Below, in pieces: positions 11,694 to 17,941 of a DNA stretch of 35,348 nt. The position numbers were made by a program, and so were the translations under genes. Numbering within the stretch: position 1 is the first letter of the stretch; each line of letters opens with the position of its first letter. This stretch comes from Clostridia bacterium (GTDB lineage Bacteria > Bacillota > Clostridia > Oscillospirales > Acutalibacteraceae), in contig JAFQBE010000007.1 of assembly GCA_017416765.1 (NCBI GenBank), positions 1 through 35,348 on the forward strand, written 5' to 3'. The notes beneath the pieces are model-generated. The model made no database searches. It was not told the DNA's origin and saw only the letters and a list, made by a program, of their open reading frames with translations.

Positions 11694-11722
11694 ATTGTAT
11701 ATGTAAAAAAACAAATTTGCAA
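11694..11722 (-). promoter_or_regulatory. Sigma-A-type promoter for the GH3/GH42-like pair
   Basis: On the minus strand TTGCAA (11717-11722) is followed after 17 bp by TACAAT (11694-11699). This is about 40 bp upstream of the GH3 start codon and just beyond the stop of the HEXXH-protein gene. Confidence 0.6.
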
Positions 11723-11729
11723 TTACTTT

Positions 11730-12572
11730 TTATCGGATTTCGGAATCAAACTCTGCATATTCCGTATACGCTTTATTAAGCTTCTTAAATTTCATCAAAG
11801 CAATTTCATTGAGCGAATGTTCTTTCATAAGGTAACGCACAAAGCGGCAACCGAGATAATATCCGACATCGGAATAGCCGTTATAAGAACACCAATCACC
11901 GAAGAAATCCTGAACGCTTTCCTTTGCATCAATACGGCGCAGATATTCCTTTTTGATTTCGGTTTCATTTTTTCGGCACCAATCAAGCCAACCGTCTTTA
12001 TCCTGATGATAAAAGTTATCATCACCGCAAAGAATATGCTCGCAAACCATAGCAACACCTTCCTGATAAAGCTGCTGTATGGCTTTTCTGCGCTTTGTAA
12101 AATCAGGAATATACAAATTGCCGTTCATCTTATGCCACAGATGACCGATTTCGTGCAGAATCAAGGCACGCATATTGATTTCATCACCCCAATCAAGCTC
12201 AATAATCTTCTCAATTCCGAGAAGAACGGTGTTCTTGCCATCAAGTACAGTTGCCCAACCTGCGCCATTACAAAGTCCGAGATACAGAATAATATTTATA
12301 TCGGGTTCTGCATCAAAAAGCTTTGAAAGATTAGCGTTCAGAGTATCAACAACAGTCTGAAAATTCTTGCTCACAAAATCAATTTTTTCTGCATTCAATG
12401 CGGTTTCAAGAACAGGAAGAACATCCTTATTGAAATCATATTCTTTTGCATCGTTTTCGCATTTTGACGGCAATTCTTTTGATATTTCGCCTGCATATTT
12501 TCTCCATACGGACATATCGAAGCCGCCTGAGAAAAGTGATTTTATTTTATCGCAGGTGTTGATGATTTTCAT
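11730..12572 (-). CDS. HEXXH zinc-metallopeptidase-like protein
   Basis: A 280-residue soluble protein carrying HEIGH (H140, E141, H144) in a helix, LILHEIGHLWHK, followed 27 residues later by E171 in YQEGVAMVCEH. This matches a gluzincin-type zinc site. No signal peptide or membrane segment is seen, so it would work in the cytoplasm. The preceding GAGWATVLDGKNTVLLGIEKI looks like the edge-strand region of related predicted peptidases of the DUF2268 kind, but I cannot assign a family firmly. AAGGTGA lies before the ATG. It follows the FlaR-like kinase by 4 bp and is probably cotranscribed with it. Confidence 0.6.
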   Translation of the reverse strand: MKIINTCDKIKSLFSGGFDMSVWRKYAGEISKELPSKCENDAKEYDFNKDVLPVLETALNAEKIDFVSKNFQTVVDTLNANLSKLFDAEPDINIILYLGLCNGAGWATVLDGKNTVLLGIEKIIELDWGDEINMRALILHEIGHLWHKMNGNLYIPDFTKRRKAIQQLYQEGVAMVCEHILCGDDNFYHQDKDGWLDWCRKNETEIKKEYLRRIDAKESVQDFFGDWCSYNGYSDVGYYLGCRFVRYLMKEHSLNEIALMKFKKLNKAYTEYAEFDSEIR

Positions 12573-12576
12573 TTTG

Positions 12577-13068
12577 TCACCTTATTTTTTTCAGATATTC
12601 ATCGGCATCTTCTCTTGATTTGAAAATAAAAATATTTCTGTTTTCTTTGTACTTATCGAGAAGCTCGTATATTTTGGGCAAAGCTGTTTTTGAAAACTCT
12701 TTGATAAAGCTTTCAAATTCGGGGTCTAATTCTTTTTCTATCCACGGCAAGTCGTAACGACCTTTACCGAGACGCTCGGTTGCACCTTGTAAGCAAACTT
12801 CTGTCGGTAAATCAAAAAGGAAAACAGTATCGCATTCGTTAAGTCGCATCTCAATTGTTCTGCCATAATTGCCGTCAATTATCCATTCATCAGTTGCAAA
12901 TATTTCTGATATTCTTTGGTCAAATTCTTCTCTCGGAATATGAGTTTTGTCAGGCTTATGCCATATAGCATCAAGATAGTATAACGGCAATCCTGTAAGC
13001 TTATTAAGTTTTTCTGCAAAGGTTGTTTTGCCTGAACCGGGACAACCGATTATAATAACCTTTTTCAT
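12577..13068 (-). CDS. FlaR-like (topology-modulation-type) P-loop kinase
   Basis: The predicted protein starts MKKVIIIGCPGSGKTTFAEK, with Walker A at residues 8-15. Other motifs are LYYLDAIWHKP, ATDEWIIDGNYGRT and VFLFDLP, matching the adenylate-kinase-related FlaR group. The ATG at 13068 is chosen because TTGAGGT is correctly spaced upstream; a longer TTG start at 13083 is less likely. The substrate is unknown. The gene sits between the RAYT transposase and the HEXXH protein on the same strand. Confidence 0.77.
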   Translation of the reverse strand: MKKVIIIGCPGSGKTTFAEKLNKLTGLPLYYLDAIWHKPDKTHIPREEFDQRISEIFATDEWIIDGNYGRTIEMRLNECDTVFLFDLPTEVCLQGATERLGKGRYDLPWIEKELDPEFESFIKEFSKTALPKIYELLDKYKENRNIFIFKSREDADEYLKKIR

Positions 13069-13083
13069 TCTATACCTCAACAA

Positions 13084-13572
13084 TCAGTTTTCATTTCTAA
13101 TATACCATGCAATCGGATTGTTTTCGATATATTCCCACTTTGTGTTGTAATCTTCATCGTCGCGTATTACATGGTCATAATATAATTTCTGCCAGACCGA
13201 AAAGCCTATTCTTTTGGTTACATAACCTTTAAATTGATTCACAACGGTCGGAATCGTAGGGGCGCCCATCGGGCGTCCGCCTTTATCCGGCAGAATAGTA
13301 AGCAGCAAATGAACATGGTCGGGCATAATTACATATTTATCGAGCCTTATTCCTACATATATTTTTTCAATATTATTGATTGATTCATCAACAATTTTTC
13401 CGTATTCCGATAGCTCACACCACGGACGCCCGATGGGCGCCCCTACGATATTACCGAAGTAATTTCGCCTGTCTTTTGCGCAAATTGTAAGAAAAAAAGT
13501 TCCGCAGGAAGAATAATCAAAGCCCTTTAATCGGTTATCCTTTCGTTTTGGCAACAAATTATCGTTCATCAT
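13084..13572 (-). CDS. REP-associated tyrosine transposase (RAYT, IS200-like Y1)
   Basis: A 162-residue HUH transposase with PDHVHLLL supplying the His-hydrophobic-His metal site (about residues 83-90). The C-terminal FKGYVTKRIGFSVWQKLYYDHVIRDDEDY...YIENNPIAW region is typical of the single-domain Y1/TnpA-REP family and carries candidate catalytic tyrosines. It appears complete. Its start overlaps the HAD gene stop by four bases (ATGA, 13569-13572), so it is expressed in an operon rather than as a free IS. Unusually, it contains an exact 24-bp inverted repeat (13256-13279 and 13423-13446), translated as VGAPIGRP near residue 43 and GRPMGAPT near residue 100. Confidence 0.88.
   Translation of the reverse strand: MMNDNLLPKRKDNRLKGFDYSSCGTFFLTICAKDRRNYFGNIVGAPIGRPWCELSEYGKIVDESINNIEKIYVGIRLDKYVIMPDHVHLLLTILPDKGGRPMGAPTIPTVVNQFKGYVTKRIGFSVWQKLYYDHVIRDDEDYNTKWEYIENNPIAWYIRNEN
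13256..13279 (+). repeat. REP-like repeat inside the transposase, copy 1
   Basis: A 24-bp sequence starting GTAGGGGCGCCC on the plus strand, itself palindromic in its centre. It is identical to the reverse complement of 13423-13446, and both copies have their GTAGGGG end outward. It is in frame with the transposase and supplies residues GRPMGAPT. Confidence 0.85.
13423..13446 (-). repeat. REP-like repeat inside the transposase, copy 2
   Basis: An exact inverted copy of 13256-13279, 143 bp away. It encodes VGAPIGRP in the transposase frame. The related intergenic repeat arm at 3503-3527 would read VGAIHESP in the corresponding frame. Confidence 0.85.
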
Positions 13573-14255
13573 GTCACTTCCTCAACAAAATCAATTAACT
13601 GTTTCAGATTATGGATTGTCCAATTGTCATTGTTTTTACCACTTCGGTCAAGGTAAAATGATGTAAACCCTTGTTCTCTTGCGCCGTCGGCTTCTTCCTT
13701 GCAGTCGTCAACAAATATGCTTTCTGCGGCGTTTACACCTTGTGCCTTGAGTGCGGCATTGAAAATAATCGGACTGGGTTTACCCGCACCGACCAACGAG
13801 CTTGCGGTAAACGATGTGAAATATTTTGCAATATCCAACTGCTGCAAGGTAAATTCAAGTGAAGGAGAAGTATCGCTGATAACTCCCATTTTGTAGCCAC
13901 GGCTTTTAAAATATTCAAGCACCTCAACCGTTTCTGCAAATAAAGCTCTGTCGCCGTTGCACCAAAGCTCATTCAAAAGACAATCCGCTTTTTCCTCAAC
14001 GTTTTCTGTTACACCCTCACCGACAAGAAGATGACAGTAATACCTTCTGAAAAAATCACGCTCATCATCAAGTGTTTTATACCAAGGCTTTCTGCCCTCA
14101 CTTGCAAGGTGAAACAAAGCCATCATTTTATCGTAATCGAGTTCAAACGGCTTACCGCTCCAGCTGCTGATTTTAGTGTTACGCCAAACTTCTTTTTCTG
14201 CGGTGAAATATGTCAGTGTACCGTCACGGTCAAAGAATATTGCTTTGTGTTTCAT
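13569..14255 (-). CDS. HAD-superfamily hydrolase
   Basis: A 228-residue HAD phosphatase-like protein. Motif I is FFDRDGTLTYF, motif II is GVISDTSPSLE, motif III is the lysine in VGAGKPSPIIF, and motif IV is SIFVDDCKEEADGAREQG. The helical cap between about residues 20 and 100 makes it a subclass I member of the phosphoglycolate phosphatase/beta-phosphoglucomutase type. The substrate is unknown. GAGGT lies before the ATG. It overlaps the RAYT gene by four bases, so the transposase depends on this transcript. Confidence 0.87.
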   Translation of the reverse strand: MKHKAIFFDRDGTLTYFTAEKEVWRNTKISSWSGKPFELDYDKMMALFHLASEGRKPWYKTLDDERDFFRRYYCHLLVGEGVTENVEEKADCLLNELWCNGDRALFAETVEVLEYFKSRGYKMGVISDTSPSLEFTLQQLDIAKYFTSFTASSLVGAGKPSPIIFNAALKAQGVNAAESIFVDDCKEEADGAREQGFTSFYLDRSGKNNDNWTIHNLKQLIDFVEEVT

Positions 14256-14264
14256 TATCTAACC

Positions 14265-14897
14265 TCATTTCTTATGCAGAATATGCCACACATCATTACC
14301 GACAAATCCACATTTTCTGTATAGTGCTTCGGGGTTTGTGGAATTATCTACTTTACCCGAAACAGTTGCAAAATCTGCAACACCTTTCATTCTGAATAAT
14401 AGTTCTGTTACTATCAACTGTCCTATTTTCTTGCCCCGGCATTCGGGTAGCACCTGTATCCATTCAAGTATAAGTTCTTTTGCTTTTGTGTCATAATCAG
14501 CTAAACCGCAACCGACAAAGTTACCGGTTGCTTTTTCTTTAACCATTATCCATAAGTTTTCGCTGTAAACAGGTGTTTTAGTATAACTCTTGATAAGTTC
14601 CGTGTTTACTGAAATATCTGTATATGAATCGTTGATTATCTGCACAATTTTCTTAATATCTTTTTGTTTTGCGGTTTTAACTTCAAAATCATTGGTTGTT
14701 ATCGGGGGTATTTCTTTAAGATTGTGATATAAACGAAAATATTTCTCGTCAGTATAGTTTGTTAGTATATCCTCTCTAAAATCCCTATCATGCAGAATTT
14801 TCATAACGGGTGGAATGGTAATGCTTTTAGCTTTCCAATACGGAATGGATAATGTTCCGCAAGGATTATTCAAATATTCATTCAGTGTAATCTTCAT
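14265..14897 (-). CDS. GNAT family N-acetyltransferase with N-terminal extension
   Basis: About 210 residues. The first 70 (MKITLNEYLNNPCGTLSIPYWK...) form an extension before the GNAT fold. The acetyl-CoA region is EWIQVLPECRGKKIGQLIVTELL (R-G-K-K-I-G), and ALYRKCGFVGNDVWHILHKK is the usual C-terminal segment. The ATG at 14897 is preferred over a GTG at 14906, though the ribosome site is weak. Related extended GNATs are common in Clostridia and uncharacterised. It lies 9 bp upstream of the HAD gene and probably heads the unit 14897-11730. Confidence 0.8.
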   Translation of the reverse strand: MKITLNEYLNNPCGTLSIPYWKAKSITIPPVMKILHDRDFREDILTNYTDEKYFRLYHNLKEIPPITTNDFEVKTAKQKDIKKIVQIINDSYTDISVNTELIKSYTKTPVYSENLWIMVKEKATGNFVGCGLADYDTKAKELILEWIQVLPECRGKKIGQLIVTELLFRMKGVADFATVSGKVDNSTNPEALYRKCGFVGNDVWHILHKK

Positions 14898-14990
14898 AAT
14901 AACCACTAACTTTCAAATTATAATTTATCTAACTAATTGATGCTCTGATAACAGCCTTCCCTGTGTAAGTAGAGTCCGATTGACAAAGAC

Positions 14991-15503
14991 TTAAACAATT
15001 CCACATTTTTTATAAATCCGCTCAATATACGGCGATTTATAAGCAATATAATCATCAATGCTGTCGGGGTATAATTTTGCACCGTCTTCTTTCACCTTAC
15101 TGTATTCACATACAGCTTCGGGATTATTCCTCAGATAATTTCTGAAAGTAATATGTCTGTTAAGCTCTGCAGAAAATTCAGGGCAAACATACAAATGGTG
15201 TTTGGGCAAGTCCGCATTACCTCTGTAATCAAAAGCCTCTCTGTCTTTTATACCAAGGTTACCTTCGTGTATGTAACCGAGTGATGCCAGACTTTTAACC
15301 AATGTATCAAAAACATAGTAATCTTTAATAACTATATCAATATCAATAATCGGCTTTGCAGCAAGACCTTCAACAGAGGTACTGCCGATATGTTCAACGC
15401 TGATTACTATATCTTTTACTGCCGGTAACAGATGCTTTTTTATTGTTTCAAAATCCGTTTTCCATTGTTCGTTATACGGAGTAACTATAACTCTTTTTGA
15501 CAT
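14991..15503 (-). CDS. GrpB family protein (UPF0157)
   Basis: About 170 residues of the GrpB family, a nucleotidyltransferase-fold group. EHIGSTSVEGLAAKPIIDIDIVI is the family hallmark (GS and DxD), and FRNYLRNNPEAVCEYSKVK is also conserved. Some members are fused to dephospho-CoA kinase; the stand-alone function is unsettled. The ATG at 15503 has GAGGTG upstream and is chosen over a GTG at 15509. It follows the attenuator-controlled GNAT by about 14 bp and is likely in the same transcript. Downstream, 14907-14990 holds no gene. Confidence 0.85.
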   Translation of the reverse strand: MSKRVIVTPYNEQWKTDFETIKKHLLPAVKDIVISVEHIGSTSVEGLAAKPIIDIDIVIKDYYVFDTLVKSLASLGYIHEGNLGIKDREAFDYRGNADLPKHHLYVCPEFSAELNRHITFRNYLRNNPEAVCEYSKVKEDGAKLYPDSIDDYIAYKSPYIERIYKKCGIV

Positions 15504-15516
15504 AGGCACACCTCTT

Positions 15517-16008
15517 TTATATTACTTTCTCAAAACAAGCCAAAATCAAGCCCGGTTCTGTTTCAAGCCTTTTGCCTGTATCTTTATAGCCGCATTTCGT
15601 GTAGCATTTTCTGTTTTTTTCCAAATCTTCCGGGAAATCAACATACAGCTTTTTAGGTTTTTCCAAAAACCTTTCAGATTGTAATATTGCTTTTGTTGCT
15701 ATACCTTTATTTTGATATTCCGGCAAAATATACACCCTTGTAAGATAATACTTGCCTAACATCAACTTTTTAATAAACGGTGTTGAACCTTTAAGTCTGT
15801 ATAAAATACCGCCGACAATTTTTTCATCATAAAGTATTGTTAAATACAGGAAGTTGGAACTATCCAATCTGCAAAGTATATCACGCTTATCCCTCAAATA
15901 CGGGTTGCCTTCATCGTGGTACTTTTCATAAAGAGGCTGAAAGGCTTGCCGCTGAATATCTGTCAGAATATCAGCATCTTCCATTGTGGTTAATCTTAAT
16001 GAAATCAC
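15517..16008 (-). CDS. GNAT N-acetyltransferase behind a leader-peptide attenuator
   Basis: About 163 residues. The acetyl-CoA site is RVYILPEYQNKGIATKAIL (Q-N-K-G-I-A), and NRKCYTKCGYKDTGKRLE ends the GNAT fold. The N terminus LTTMEDADILTDIQRQAFQPLYEKYHDEGNPY is typical of a widespread uncharacterised Firmicutes group. The start is uncertain: GTG at 16008 is six bases after GGAGTG, whereas GTG at 16017 overlaps that ribosome site. Upstream are a terminator hairpin, a leader ORF and a perfect promoter. Control by ribosome stalling, common for resistance genes, suggests a role in inactivating a translation inhibitor; this is inference. Confidence 0.83.
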   Translation of the reverse strand: MISLRLTTMEDADILTDIQRQAFQPLYEKYHDEGNPYLRDKRDILCRLDSSNFLYLTILYDEKIVGGILYRLKGSTPFIKKLMLGKYYLTRVYILPEYQNKGIATKAILQSERFLEKPKKLYVDFPEDLEKNRKCYTKCGYKDTGKRLETEPGLILACFEKVI

Positions 16009-16024
16009 TTTAATCACTCCAAAT

Positions 16025-16060
16025 AAAAAAAACTCCCCTGATATAAAAATCAGAGGAGTT
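16025..16060 (-). terminator. Intrinsic terminator acting as attenuator
   Basis: On the minus strand a 12-bp stem (AACTCCTCTGAT with ATCAGGGGAGTT, one G-U pair) closes a 6-nt loop and is followed by eight Ts. Plus-strand arms are 16031-16042 and 16049-16060. It lies between the leader ORF stop and the GNAT ribosome site. The 5' arm can instead pair with 16110-16121 inside the leader ORF. Confidence 0.85.
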
Positions 16061-16085
16061 CCGTATAATCAATAAAGCTATATAA

Positions 16086-16160
16086 TTATAGACATATTGC
16101 GGACAAAACAACTTCTGATTTACTATACAAATTTGAATGATAAAGATAATACATTGTCAT
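16086..16160 (-). CDS. Tyrosine-rich leader peptide, 24 codons
   Basis: A short ORF starting at 16160 encodes MTMYYLYHSNLYS and then a further 11 residues ending SAICL, with stop TAA at 16086-16088. Four of the first 12 codons are TAT. AGGTGG lies five bases before the ATG. The ribosome site and start can be masked by a 10-bp stem (16160-16169 with 16099-16108, one G-U). Codons 14-17 (16110-16121) form the 5' arm of a possible antiterminator. The peptide has the features of a cis-acting stalling leader rather than a functional protein. A second ATG is at codon 3. Confidence 0.65.
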   Translation of the reverse strand: MTMYYLYHSNLYSKSEVVLSAICL

Positions 16161-16169
16161 TTTGTCCAC
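16099..16169 (-). promoter_or_regulatory. Leader RNA switch: SD-masking stem and antiterminator arm
   Basis: Two alternative pairings are visible. GUGGACAAAA (16169-16160) pairs with UUUUGUCCGC (16108-16099), hiding the leader ribosome site. AAAUCAGA-AGUU (16121-16110) pairs with the 5' terminator arm (16060-16047), eight contiguous pairs plus four with two bulged Cs. The second pairing excludes the terminator. The first encloses the antiterminator arm in a loop, so only a ribosome paused early in the ORF would free it. Confidence 0.6.
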
Positions 16170-16193
16170 CTGCCTTTCAGTAATTTTTTTGCT

Positions 16194-16222
16194 ATTATAA
16201 CAAATTGAATTTTATCTGTCAA
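16194..16222 (-). promoter_or_regulatory. Perfect sigma-A promoter of the attenuated GNAT
   Basis: On the minus strand TTGACA (16217-16222) and TATAAT (16194-16199) are separated by exactly 17 bp, a full consensus promoter. The -35 abuts the stop codon of the GH36 gene at 16223. Start of transcription is expected near 16187, giving a leader of about 160 nt up to the terminator. Confidence 0.85.
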
Positions 16223-17941
16223 TTATTCGAAATACTTTTTCCAGCTCTTGTCGGAAAGAATTTCACCCTTATCGAGGTTGAAAACAAGCTTATCGCGCTT
16301 GCCGTCTTTTTCCGTTACAACTTCAATAACGGAGCTGTTGACATATTCTGCGGAAATAATCTTTTCGTCGGTCTTTTCAAAGAACTTTCTGACAAGGGTT
16401 TGAGCAGCTTTATCATACTCGCCCGCATTGTCGGAAACGAAAAGAACATTACCGCAAAGGTTATTGATTCTGCCGAGGAGATATTTCTGCTCGTCTGTAA
16501 ACTGGAGCTTATTAAGGTGCATCAATAAAACATCGGTAAATTTAAGGTTGTTTTTACGCAGGAAGAATACATCGGGGTCGTTCATCCACACTCTGCCGTT
16601 CATATGGCGGCGGAAGATTGAATTGTTGATTGCGCTGCGGGCATTGAGCATTTCGTTTGCAACCTGAATACGGCTGTAAATCATGCCCTCATAGAAAAGG
16701 TCAACATCGCAGCTGATACGGCAGGCATCAACAACGCCCATTGCCGCACCAATCGGTACACCGCAGCCGAGAATCAGCTTATCGCCCACACATTCGCGAA
16801 GGAAAGCCATAGCGTCGCACATGATTTCGCCGCGGCTCTTGCCGTGTCTGGGTTTGATACACTGGCTGTAGAGGAAGTCGAGCTTTACCATATCGTAGCC
16901 CCAATCGTTGAGTACGGTATCGAAAACCTGCTTGATATATGCTCTTGCTTCTTCGTTATAAATATCGAAGGTATATGCGCCGCCCCATGCAACACAACCT
17001 ATCATGGGCTTGCCGTTGGTATCCTGAATCAGCCAATCGGGGTGTTCCTTTGCCATGCGTGAAATCTTCTGACAGTTGAAGGGAGCAAGCCATATACCGG
17101 CTTTATAGCCCTTTTCGTGAATTTTATCGGCAATATACTTCATACCGTTGGGGAACTTTGTAGGGTTGGGATCGAGCCAATCGCCGATATAGGTTTCATA
17201 ACCGTCATCAATCTGGAAGATATTTACCTGGTCCTTATACGGGTCAAGTCCGTCAAGGTCACGCAGGATAATGTTTTCGTCAATATCCTGGAAGTAGTTG
17301 TACCAGGATGTGTAGCCGCTCATTGTACCGTGTCTTGTTTCGGGCATATCCCACATACCGAAGTAGTTATCAAAAACTTCTTCATAGCCGCCTTCAAAAT
17401 ATACAATATCGAAAACCTCAAGCGGTTCGGTTACAACCTTGCCGAGAAGGTCCTTTGTAAAATAAAAACGGTTTTCGTTCATCTTTACCTTAAAAATGGT
17501 AAAGCCTGTTTTTTCGGTAAGTGAACCCCAGAGCCTGACATTTTCGCCGTTTCTGATATAGGTATAGCAATGGCTGTGGAATTCGCCGGGCTTTTCGGAA
17601 TACTTTACAATCCATTCATCGCCCGTTTTTCTTACCATGCCTTTTGTATATTCGGAAATATTTGCAAGCTTGATGCAGCCGCGCATAATTTCATCGGCAA
17701 GGTACTCCCTTGTCTTTGTCCAGGACTGATAACCGTTGCCGAAAAATCTGTCACCCTTTTTGAATTCATAAGGCATTTCGGAATAAAACTCAACAAGCTC
17801 AATCATTTTCTTAGGAACAAGCGTTACCTTATAACGGTTGCCTGTTTCTTCAACGCTGATGCTGTATGCATCGGTATCAAGCTCATGCGAGGTAAACTCC
17901 TTACCGCCGAACTTATATTTTACGGTATACTTTTTATTCAT
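16223..17941 (-). CDS. GH36-type alpha-galactosidase
   Basis: A 572-residue cytoplasmic enzyme of the GH36/clan GH-D type. The TIM barrel has FQIDDGYE, KAGIWLAPF and DMVKLDFLYS, with D355 the predicted nucleophile, and CRISCDVD with D412 the candidate acid/base. It is shorter than the 720-residue classical GH36 enzymes and resembles the compact clostridial forms, so the donor sugar (galactose, or N-acetylgalactosamine) is not certain. AAGGGGAT lies before the ATG, and TTGCTA-17-TATTAT sits upstream. It appears to be a single-gene unit; no transporter is adjacent. Confidence 0.82.
   Translation of the reverse strand: MNKKYTVKYKFGGKEFTSHELDTDAYSISVEETGNRYKVTLVPKKMIELVEFYSEMPYEFKKGDRFFGNGYQSWTKTREYLADEIMRGCIKLANISEYTKGMVRKTGDEWIVKYSEKPGEFHSHCYTYIRNGENVRLWGSLTEKTGFTIFKVKMNENRFYFTKDLLGKVVTEPLEVFDIVYFEGGYEEVFDNYFGMWDMPETRHGTMSGYTSWYNYFQDIDENIILRDLDGLDPYKDQVNIFQIDDGYETYIGDWLDPNPTKFPNGMKYIADKIHEKGYKAGIWLAPFNCQKISRMAKEHPDWLIQDTNGKPMIGCVAWGGAYTFDIYNEEARAYIKQVFDTVLNDWGYDMVKLDFLYSQCIKPRHGKSRGEIMCDAMAFLRECVGDKLILGCGVPIGAAMGVVDACRISCDVDLFYEGMIYSRIQVANEMLNARSAINNSIFRRHMNGRVWMNDPDVFFLRKNNLKFTDVLLMHLNKLQFTDEQKYLLGRINNLCGNVLFVSDNAGEYDKAAQTLVRKFFEKTDEKIISAEYVNSSVIEVVTEKDGKRDKLVFNLDKGEILSDKSWKKYFE

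Follow-up and report, generated by a model that had tools for sequence, protein, structure and literature searches.

The window analysed here, a 35,348-nt stretch of a Clostridia bacterium genome (family Acutalibacteraceae), carries on its minus strand a row of genes headed by a GNAT acetyltransferase and preceded by a leader with its own promoter and terminator (Table 1). The promoter stands directly 3' of the stop codon of a melibiase-like gene. A first-pass annotation had described it as a perfect TTGACA-17-TATAAT element; it is indeed there, and its TTGACA (16222-16217), 17-nt spacer and TATAAT (16199-16194) form the sole 12/12 promoter match within 11700-16300. The strong ribosome site and the 24-codon ORF reported downstream of it were confirmed as well, with the four TAT (Tyr) codons noted among the first twelve falling at codons 4, 5, 7 and 12.

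Table 1. Leader elements and downstream genes in the window, with the basis for each.
Feature	Position	Strand	Basis or remark
Consensus promoter TTGACA-17-TATAAT	16194..16222	-	12/12 match to consensus
Leader ribosome-binding site AGGTGG	16166..16171	-	mostly within arm 1, 5 nt before ATG 16160
Leader ORF, 24 codons, MTMYYLYHSNLYSKSEVVLSAICL	16086..16160	-	frame through arm 2 conserved across related leaders
Arm 1, ribosome-site/start-codon half of anti-antiterminator	16156..16169	-	fold and covariation
Arm 2, 3' half of anti-antiterminator, codes late leader codons	16099..16112	-	fold and covariation
Antiterminator segment AATCAGAAGTT within leader ORF	16110..16120	-	duplex and mask folding
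Intrinsic terminator (attenuator), 14-bp stem and T run	16025..16062	-	fold and covariation
GNAT acetyltransferase, first gene of operon	15517..16008	-	PF00583, 1.1e-12; start set by homologues
GrpB, probably co-transcribed	14991..15509	-	PF04229; no same-strand terminator-like site between GNAT and GrpB
Second GNAT, probable operon member	14265..14906	-	no strong terminator-like site before it
HAD-family hydrolase, probable operon member	13569..14255	-	HAD domains also behind leaders L008, L133
P-loop kinase-like ORF, possible distal operon member	12577..13083	-	relatives in L033, L035-L037

We corrected the start of the GNAT, as its homologues begin at the second GTG (16008) and not at 16017. 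From the attenuator down to 12577, the only same-strand terminator-like site is a weak 5-bp one at 13786, so GrpB, the second GNAT, the HAD hydrolase and perhaps more are likely co-transcribed. The earlier proposal, that the leader governs a GNAT of uncharacterised function and that GrpB probably belongs to its operon, was supported. The gene row also holds an ORF resembling a REP-associated tyrosine transposase (13084-13572, minus strand; NF047646, 2.2e-17, 63 bits against a cut-off of 80).

Two stems dominate the predicted fold of the leader. The first, a masking stem joining 16169-16156 to 16112-16099, takes in the start codon and most of the ribosome site and reaches -19.5 kcal/mol, against a mean of -10.9 for shuffled sequences, none of which did as well (0/200). 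The second, the terminator stem, joins 16062-16049 to 16042-16029, is followed by a T run to 16025, and reaches -19.6 against a shuffle mean of -7.2 (again 0/200). Both had been recognised in the first-pass annotation and are real, but each is 14 bp long rather than the 10 and 12 bp given there. As had also been proposed, a segment inside the leader ORF, AATCAGAAGTT (16120-16110), is predicted to be able to pair with the 5' arm of the terminator. The ribosome site of the main gene (GGAG, 16021-16018) is unpaired in a fold of 16018-16070 and hence not sequestered in this local structure, unlike in translation attenuators of the ermC/cat type.

The window's own genome showed no second copy of the leader. 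When 300 genomes of the family were searched at the DNA level with the window leader, 35 gave matches at an E-value of 0.001 or better, its own genome included. Matches were long in six other genomes; the remainder were mostly short, many limited to the promoter, the ribosome site and the first codons. Reading out the short matches showed that a good part of them represent leaders whose peptides and downstream genes vary, and that some are chance (for example L021 and L025-L027). A two-arm pattern occurred at 37 places in 27 of 398 same-family genomes (the window's own counted, one place read on both strands), with no match in those genomes for the reversed pattern. Among 394 same-order genomes the pattern matched 11, three of them already known, leaving eight further, against one match for the reversed control. 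Four of 291 same-class genomes matched, the window's own included; one of the others fits the leader type (49 nt, in frame), and the remaining two (63 and 62 nt) do not. From 62 pattern candidates we retained 53, dropping five without a ribosome site, three on the opposite strand and L178, which has a weak terminator.

A covariance model built from 50 leaders extended this picture. At an E-value of 0.01 it matched 43 of 200 same-family and 22 of 197 same-order genomes, and at 1e-5 it matched 19 and 9 of them, respectively, with the window's own genome counted in each figure. The weaker matches are a mixture, and among those read some look like members (L200-L208, L210, L221-L224) and others like chance (L209, L213, L226). 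Tens of loci with the same architecture are more than chance would give.

Rfam returned no match at gathering score in the window or in eight member loci, and the best sub-threshold match on the leader scored 25 bits against the 54 needed. Guanidine-IV variant RNAs also stand before GNATs, according to the portion of PMC9788692 consulted; as an identity for the leader they were rejected, given no Rfam match in the window or the eight member loci. A viral origin was likewise rejected, since the 19 pattern matches on viral contigs have other arm spacings (1 of 19 equal to 1 mod 3). A viral scan found no relative of the window GNAT, and three leader queries (window, L154 and L010) found no plasmid match; the one phage match to the leader is a promoter-like stretch of 51 nt. 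Titles and abstract starts in the open-licence PMC literature yielded no description of such a leader family, which is not proof of absence.

The stretch from arm 1 to arm 2 measures 46, 49, 52, 55, 61 or 67 nt, and its length is 1 mod 3 in 52 of the 53 retained leaders. Because many leaders are related, the independent evidence for a kept frame is these six length classes. The exception, L022, has a stretch of 77 nt that breaks the frame through arm 2, and it was left out of the duplex re-dealing, geometry and mask-folding analyses (n = 52). In those 52 leaders the ORF spans 16-24 codons, and in 50 of them the stop codon lies 7 or 10 nt from the end of arm 2. The peptides vary in their first half, and their ends (AVLS, VVLS, TVLS and the like) are set by the sequence of arm 2. 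In an alignment of 50 leaders (L022, L032 and L039 left out), the AGG and GG columns of the ribosome site are invariant, the GG being imposed by the search pattern for most members. Judged from sequence, the leader ORF is predicted to be translated.

Based on the leader peptides, we assigned the leaders to four subtypes (A, AATCAGATGTT with AACTCCTCTGATT; B, CGGAGAGCC with GGCATCTCCG; C, GATAAAATCA with TGATTTTATC; D, GTGAAGTCAG with CTGATTTCAC). Leader peptide and terminator differ among them and the plan is shared. In the 50-leader alignment a TACGGA stretch recurs shortly before the terminator, shared by the window leader with several others of subtypes C and D, perhaps as a pause site.

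We then asked whether the alternative pairings are kept as sequences change. Duplexes between arm 2 and the terminator averaged -12.3 kcal/mol for each leader's own pair, compared to -8.9 (sd 0.35) when partners were re-dealt among the 52 leaders, and none of 10000 re-dealings reached the observed mean. When partners were re-dealt within subtypes, 0 of 10000 did as well or better for B, 30 for C and 2892 for A, in which the sequences hardly vary. In the 50-leader alignment 9 of the 10 terminator pairs have changed on both sides, and the helix between arms 1 and 2 is 98.7% paired with no double changes, partly because an exact pattern had found most members. We therefore examined a second set of 32 matches in 29 loci, mostly found without the exact pattern and fitted to the structure of the covariance model (three are weak hits, E 0.003-0.004). 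Here 8 of the 12 pairs in the helix of arms 1 and 2 and all 10 in the terminator have changed on both sides, and for neither did any of 500 shuffles reach the observed measures. Compensated arm pairs can also be read by eye, as in L223 (GTGAATGACATG with CTGTCATTCAC) and L210 (GCGGACAGA with TCTGTCCGC). The covariation anticipated in the first-pass annotation thus holds for the antiterminator, the terminator and the helix of arms 1 and 2, and the conservation of Tyr codons anticipated with it is confined to subtype A. The anti-antiterminator, the antiterminator and the intrinsic terminator are predicted to be mutually exclusive.

These kept pairings and the kept frame support the earlier proposal of a ribosome-mediated transcription attenuator in which the masking stem acts as anti-antiterminator. 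The leader architecture is well supported; the trigger we infer. Without a ribosome at the leader start, arm 1 would pair with arm 2, the antiterminator segment would be trapped and transcription would end before the GNAT. With a ribosome halted on the start codon or within the first few codons, arm 1 would be covered and the antiterminator segment left free, so that the antiterminator could form and the GNAT-GrpB-(GNAT-HAD) operon be transcribed. We put the probability of this reading, with translation inhibitors as inducers, at about 0.7. As natural inducers we would expect inhibitors that arrest ribosomes on the start codon or shortly beyond it, compounds that the controlled enzymes would mostly modify or remove.

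The position of the antiterminator relative to the start codon bears on where the ribosome would have to stall. In the predicted duplexes its first base falls at +17 to +19 in 12 of 15 subtype C leaders (+9, +21 and +24 in the others), at +20 to +29 in B, at +22 in D and at +29 to +40 in A. A ribosome at a start codon has its downstream edge at +16 to +18 in the consulted portion of PMC12121999, and the vmlR toeprint lies at 16 nt in that of PMC9226507. In subtype C, then, only a start-codon ribosome should cover arm 1 while leaving the antiterminator free. In the window, stalls up to about codon 6-9 should work too, because the antiterminator starts at about nt +33 to +41 of the leader ORF.

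Folding with a masked ribosome footprint gave results both for and against this scheme. With the start masked (-15 to +16), the antiterminator folds in all 52 nascent leaders, and full leaders left unmasked form the masking helix in 50 of 52 and the terminator in 51 of 52. The antiterminator is already favoured by energy in 20 of 52 unmasked nascent leaders (12 of 23 in B, all three in D), and once the terminator is complete it prevails in 38 of 52 leaders even when the start is masked. The scheme therefore depends on the order of folding or on pausing. For vmlR, NusG-dependent pausing prevents leaky expression, as described in the consulted portion of PMC9226507. The first-pass annotation had also held that a ribosome finishing the leader covers the antiterminator arm; this found little support, as 35 of 52 nascent leaders still formed the antiterminator when 31 nt around the final sense codon were masked.

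The same annotation took a stall in the Tyr-rich codons to be the only way to open the switch; as a general trigger this was not supported. In trp/his-type leader-peptide attenuators, the 1:2, 2:3 and 3:4 pairing logic is governed by a region 1 made of a run of control codons, and the targets are biosynthetic. The pairing logic here is the same, but region 1 is the start codon and the targets are not biosynthetic; control codons for a product amino acid before biosynthetic genes are not what the window leader type shows. An attenuator of the amino-acid type, in which scarce charged tRNA-Tyr stalls an early ribosome and so induces the operon, would fit subtype A, whose members carry 3-5 Tyr per leader (11 members): Tyr occupies codon 4 in all 13 of the subtype A leaders read and codon 5 in 12 of them, the other (L037) having Phe, and a stall at these codons leaves the antiterminator free. 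Subtypes B, C and D, however, have 0-1 Tyr in 41 of 41 members, so Tyr richness is confined to one subtype of four and Tyr scarcity was rejected as the general signal. Since the controlled genes are also not those of amino-acid biosynthesis, we regard this explanation as quite improbable.

Peptide-specific stalling of the erm type, with a drug-bound ribosome arrested at a particular motif, deserves consideration for subtype B, where most peptides contain Arg-rich motifs such as FRNRRAVLS. The codons for this motif, however, make up the antiterminator segment itself, whose first base lies at +20 to +29, so a ribosome stalled there would cover it, and the AVLS codons are explained by the pairing of arm 2. 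Context-specific arrest is, in our judgement, rather improbable.

To examine how closely the leader is tied to the GNAT, as the upstream alignment suggested in the first-pass annotation would do, we fetched 80 homologues. The covariance model matched directly upstream of all 11 nearest ones, at 73-87% identity, whereas the remaining 69, at 58% identity or below, gave no match; for L053 and L069 among these the available upstream DNA is too short to tell. Seven of the 11 leaders are training leaders of the model or the same contig stretches and match by construction; L032, L037, L039 and L042 lie outside its alignment, and the leaders at all 11 can be read directly. The link held for close homologues and failed for distant ones, and the leader's absence from the latter indicates that the link is not ancestral to the enzyme. 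Two of the homologues have other leader ORFs followed by a terminator, MAVNISTLMITVIMHDEDTRYWDSPGLYCRTQISV about 213 nt upstream in L049 and MNQNLHVRRYMYAYPRRIWL about 224 nt upstream in L052. In L049 a sequence towards the end of the ORF, ATTGTCGTAC, has its reverse complement in the start region, GTACGACAAT, the same plan with a possibly independent origin.

GrpB is not a fixed partner of the GNAT. Of the 11 close homologues, only L033 has it downstream (tblastn, 3 kb behind each; a hit in L003 is the same contig), and it is itself the first gene behind leaders L008 and L139.

Across the family, first genes behind leaders carry a GNAT domain (PF00583) in 33 of 59 cases, some of them interrelated, compared to 1 of 37 upstream-side control ORFs. 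The 59 exclude nine window-type orthologues, and L019, L119 and L123 were left out of 40 upstream controls; by our rule L019, L123, L132 and L176 have no first gene. Tandem and triple GNATs occur behind L148 and L154. Other first genes include LytTR (4), ABC_tran (4), GrpB (2), His phosphatase (2) and HAD (2, counting the L008 ORF, where HAD follows GrpB), as well as a methyltransferase, a nucleoside phosphorylase, a TIM-barrel protein and ABC exporters. In L200 the first gene is an ORF whose start is similar to that of the window's kinase-like ORF. L011, L012 and L022 have the same leader type before LytTR-type response regulators, with longer leader ORFs in L011 and L022. At L129, L132 and L019 no intact gene follows the leader closely, which gives the appearance of gene loss.

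None of the nine GNATs scanned passed an NCBIfam cut-off for a named resistance enzyme. Against solved structures, the window GNAT weakly matched GNATs (PaiA type, E 0.004-0.005) and, about as weakly, kinases, which we took as chance. As for control of antibiotic-resistance ABC-F genes, the window gene is a GNAT, and among the first genes scanned L205 alone is ABC-F-like (NF000355, 1.4e-69, 235 bits against a cut-off of 380), behind a leader that is a weaker model match (E 1.5e-5) with a GTG start.

The breadth of these targets raises the question of what the enzymes act on. The leader may instead be a general sensor of translation stress, in which any slowing of early elongation induces enzymes acting on cell components and not on drugs. 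The peptide sequence varies widely while the geometry is kept, and the target genes are mixed, both of which such a sensor could accommodate. Against the drug-defence reading, the TIM-barrel, histidine phosphatase and LytTR genes are not obvious resistance genes. The enrichment of GNATs, the ABC-F-like gene, the methyltransferase and the exporters, however, suit drug defence better, and we consider the stress sensor unlikely, though well worth keeping in mind. For the window operon, a role in resistance is plausible.

Comparison of two pairs of related genomes points to exchange of the genes that follow the leader; in both pairs these genes differ while the flanks match. In the first pair, G187 and G261 (L241, G187:C28; L242, G261:C29), a block of 800 nt at 96% identity stops 16 nt past the first base of GGACAAAATG, and the sequences align again 2.2 kb further on in one genome and 0.14 kb further on in its partner. 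In a second pair, G177 and G313 (L243, G177:C50; L244, G313:C18), the match spans the leader and its terminator and resumes 2.0 and 2.7 kb later. The swap boundary in these two pairs thus lies within the leader or just after its terminator. At L010, L018 and L032, loci picked by eye and then tested, a TnpV gene (PF14198) lies upstream with its end some 70 nt ahead of arm 1, hinting at spread with mobile elements. The region upstream of the leader at L019 resembles these three.

Such swaps, starting at or just after the leader, and the TnpV genes upstream of three loci would also be expected if no ribosome regulation took place and the inverted repeat were simply a boundary or recombination site of the exchanged genes, with an ordinary terminator. 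A site of that kind gives no reason to expect the kept frame, the co-varying antiterminator or the nearly constant stop position, and we hold this explanation to be very improbable.

The leader type would belong, as an attenuator responding to a stall in the start region, with known systems. The vmlR leader of Bacillus subtilis has the same plan in the consulted portion of PMC9226507, with a uORF within the anti-antiterminator hairpin, an antiterminator and an intrinsic terminator, and is induced by drugs that stall initiating ribosomes. As described there, however, its uORF has 3 codons (MIN), its target is an ABC-F gene and its SL-4 masks the main ribosome site, whereas the ORFs here have 16-24 codons, run in frame through the masking arm and precede mainly GNATs, and the main-gene site in the window is unmasked in a local fold. 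The cplR leader of Clostridioides difficile and that of lmo0919/vgaL likewise combine a uORF, an anti-SD element and stalling that leads to terminator read-through (PMC10201436, consulted in part). From that description, cplR is set apart by its uORF, MRI, and by a terminator stem that also masks the main ribosome site, which the window's does not. A further likeness is the toiL uORF of the Escherichia coli topAI-yjhQ locus, where start-codon stalling by tetracycline or retapamulin induces the downstream genes; in the consulted portion of that report (PMC12121999), control by toiL involves Rho and is directed at the topAI ribosome site, whereas here the terminator is intrinsic. By analogy, the leader type probably works like the vmlR and cplR start-codon-stall attenuators and differs in its longer in-frame ORF, its targets and, as far as seen, its hosts.

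More tentatively, and with somewhat less than even confidence, we propose that in uncultured gut Clostridia start-codon-gated attenuators are a common sensor module, interchangeable between genes, at the head of a reshuffled set of inducible drug-modifying enzymes, a set in which we count single, tandem and triple GNATs, GrpB, HAD, methyltransferase, kinase-like and ABC-F proteins and exporters. If the attenuator reading is true, start-codon-stall attenuation would extend from ABC-F genes to GNATs, and one RNA signature would flag dozens of uncharacterised enzymes that are switched on when the ribosomes of gut bacteria are blocked. Resistance functions could then be found by their regulation and not by sequence similarity, with a simple test of each enzyme's target. 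The occurrence of this leader type before many genes suggests, on sequence grounds, a little-known inducible defence against ribosome-blocking drugs.
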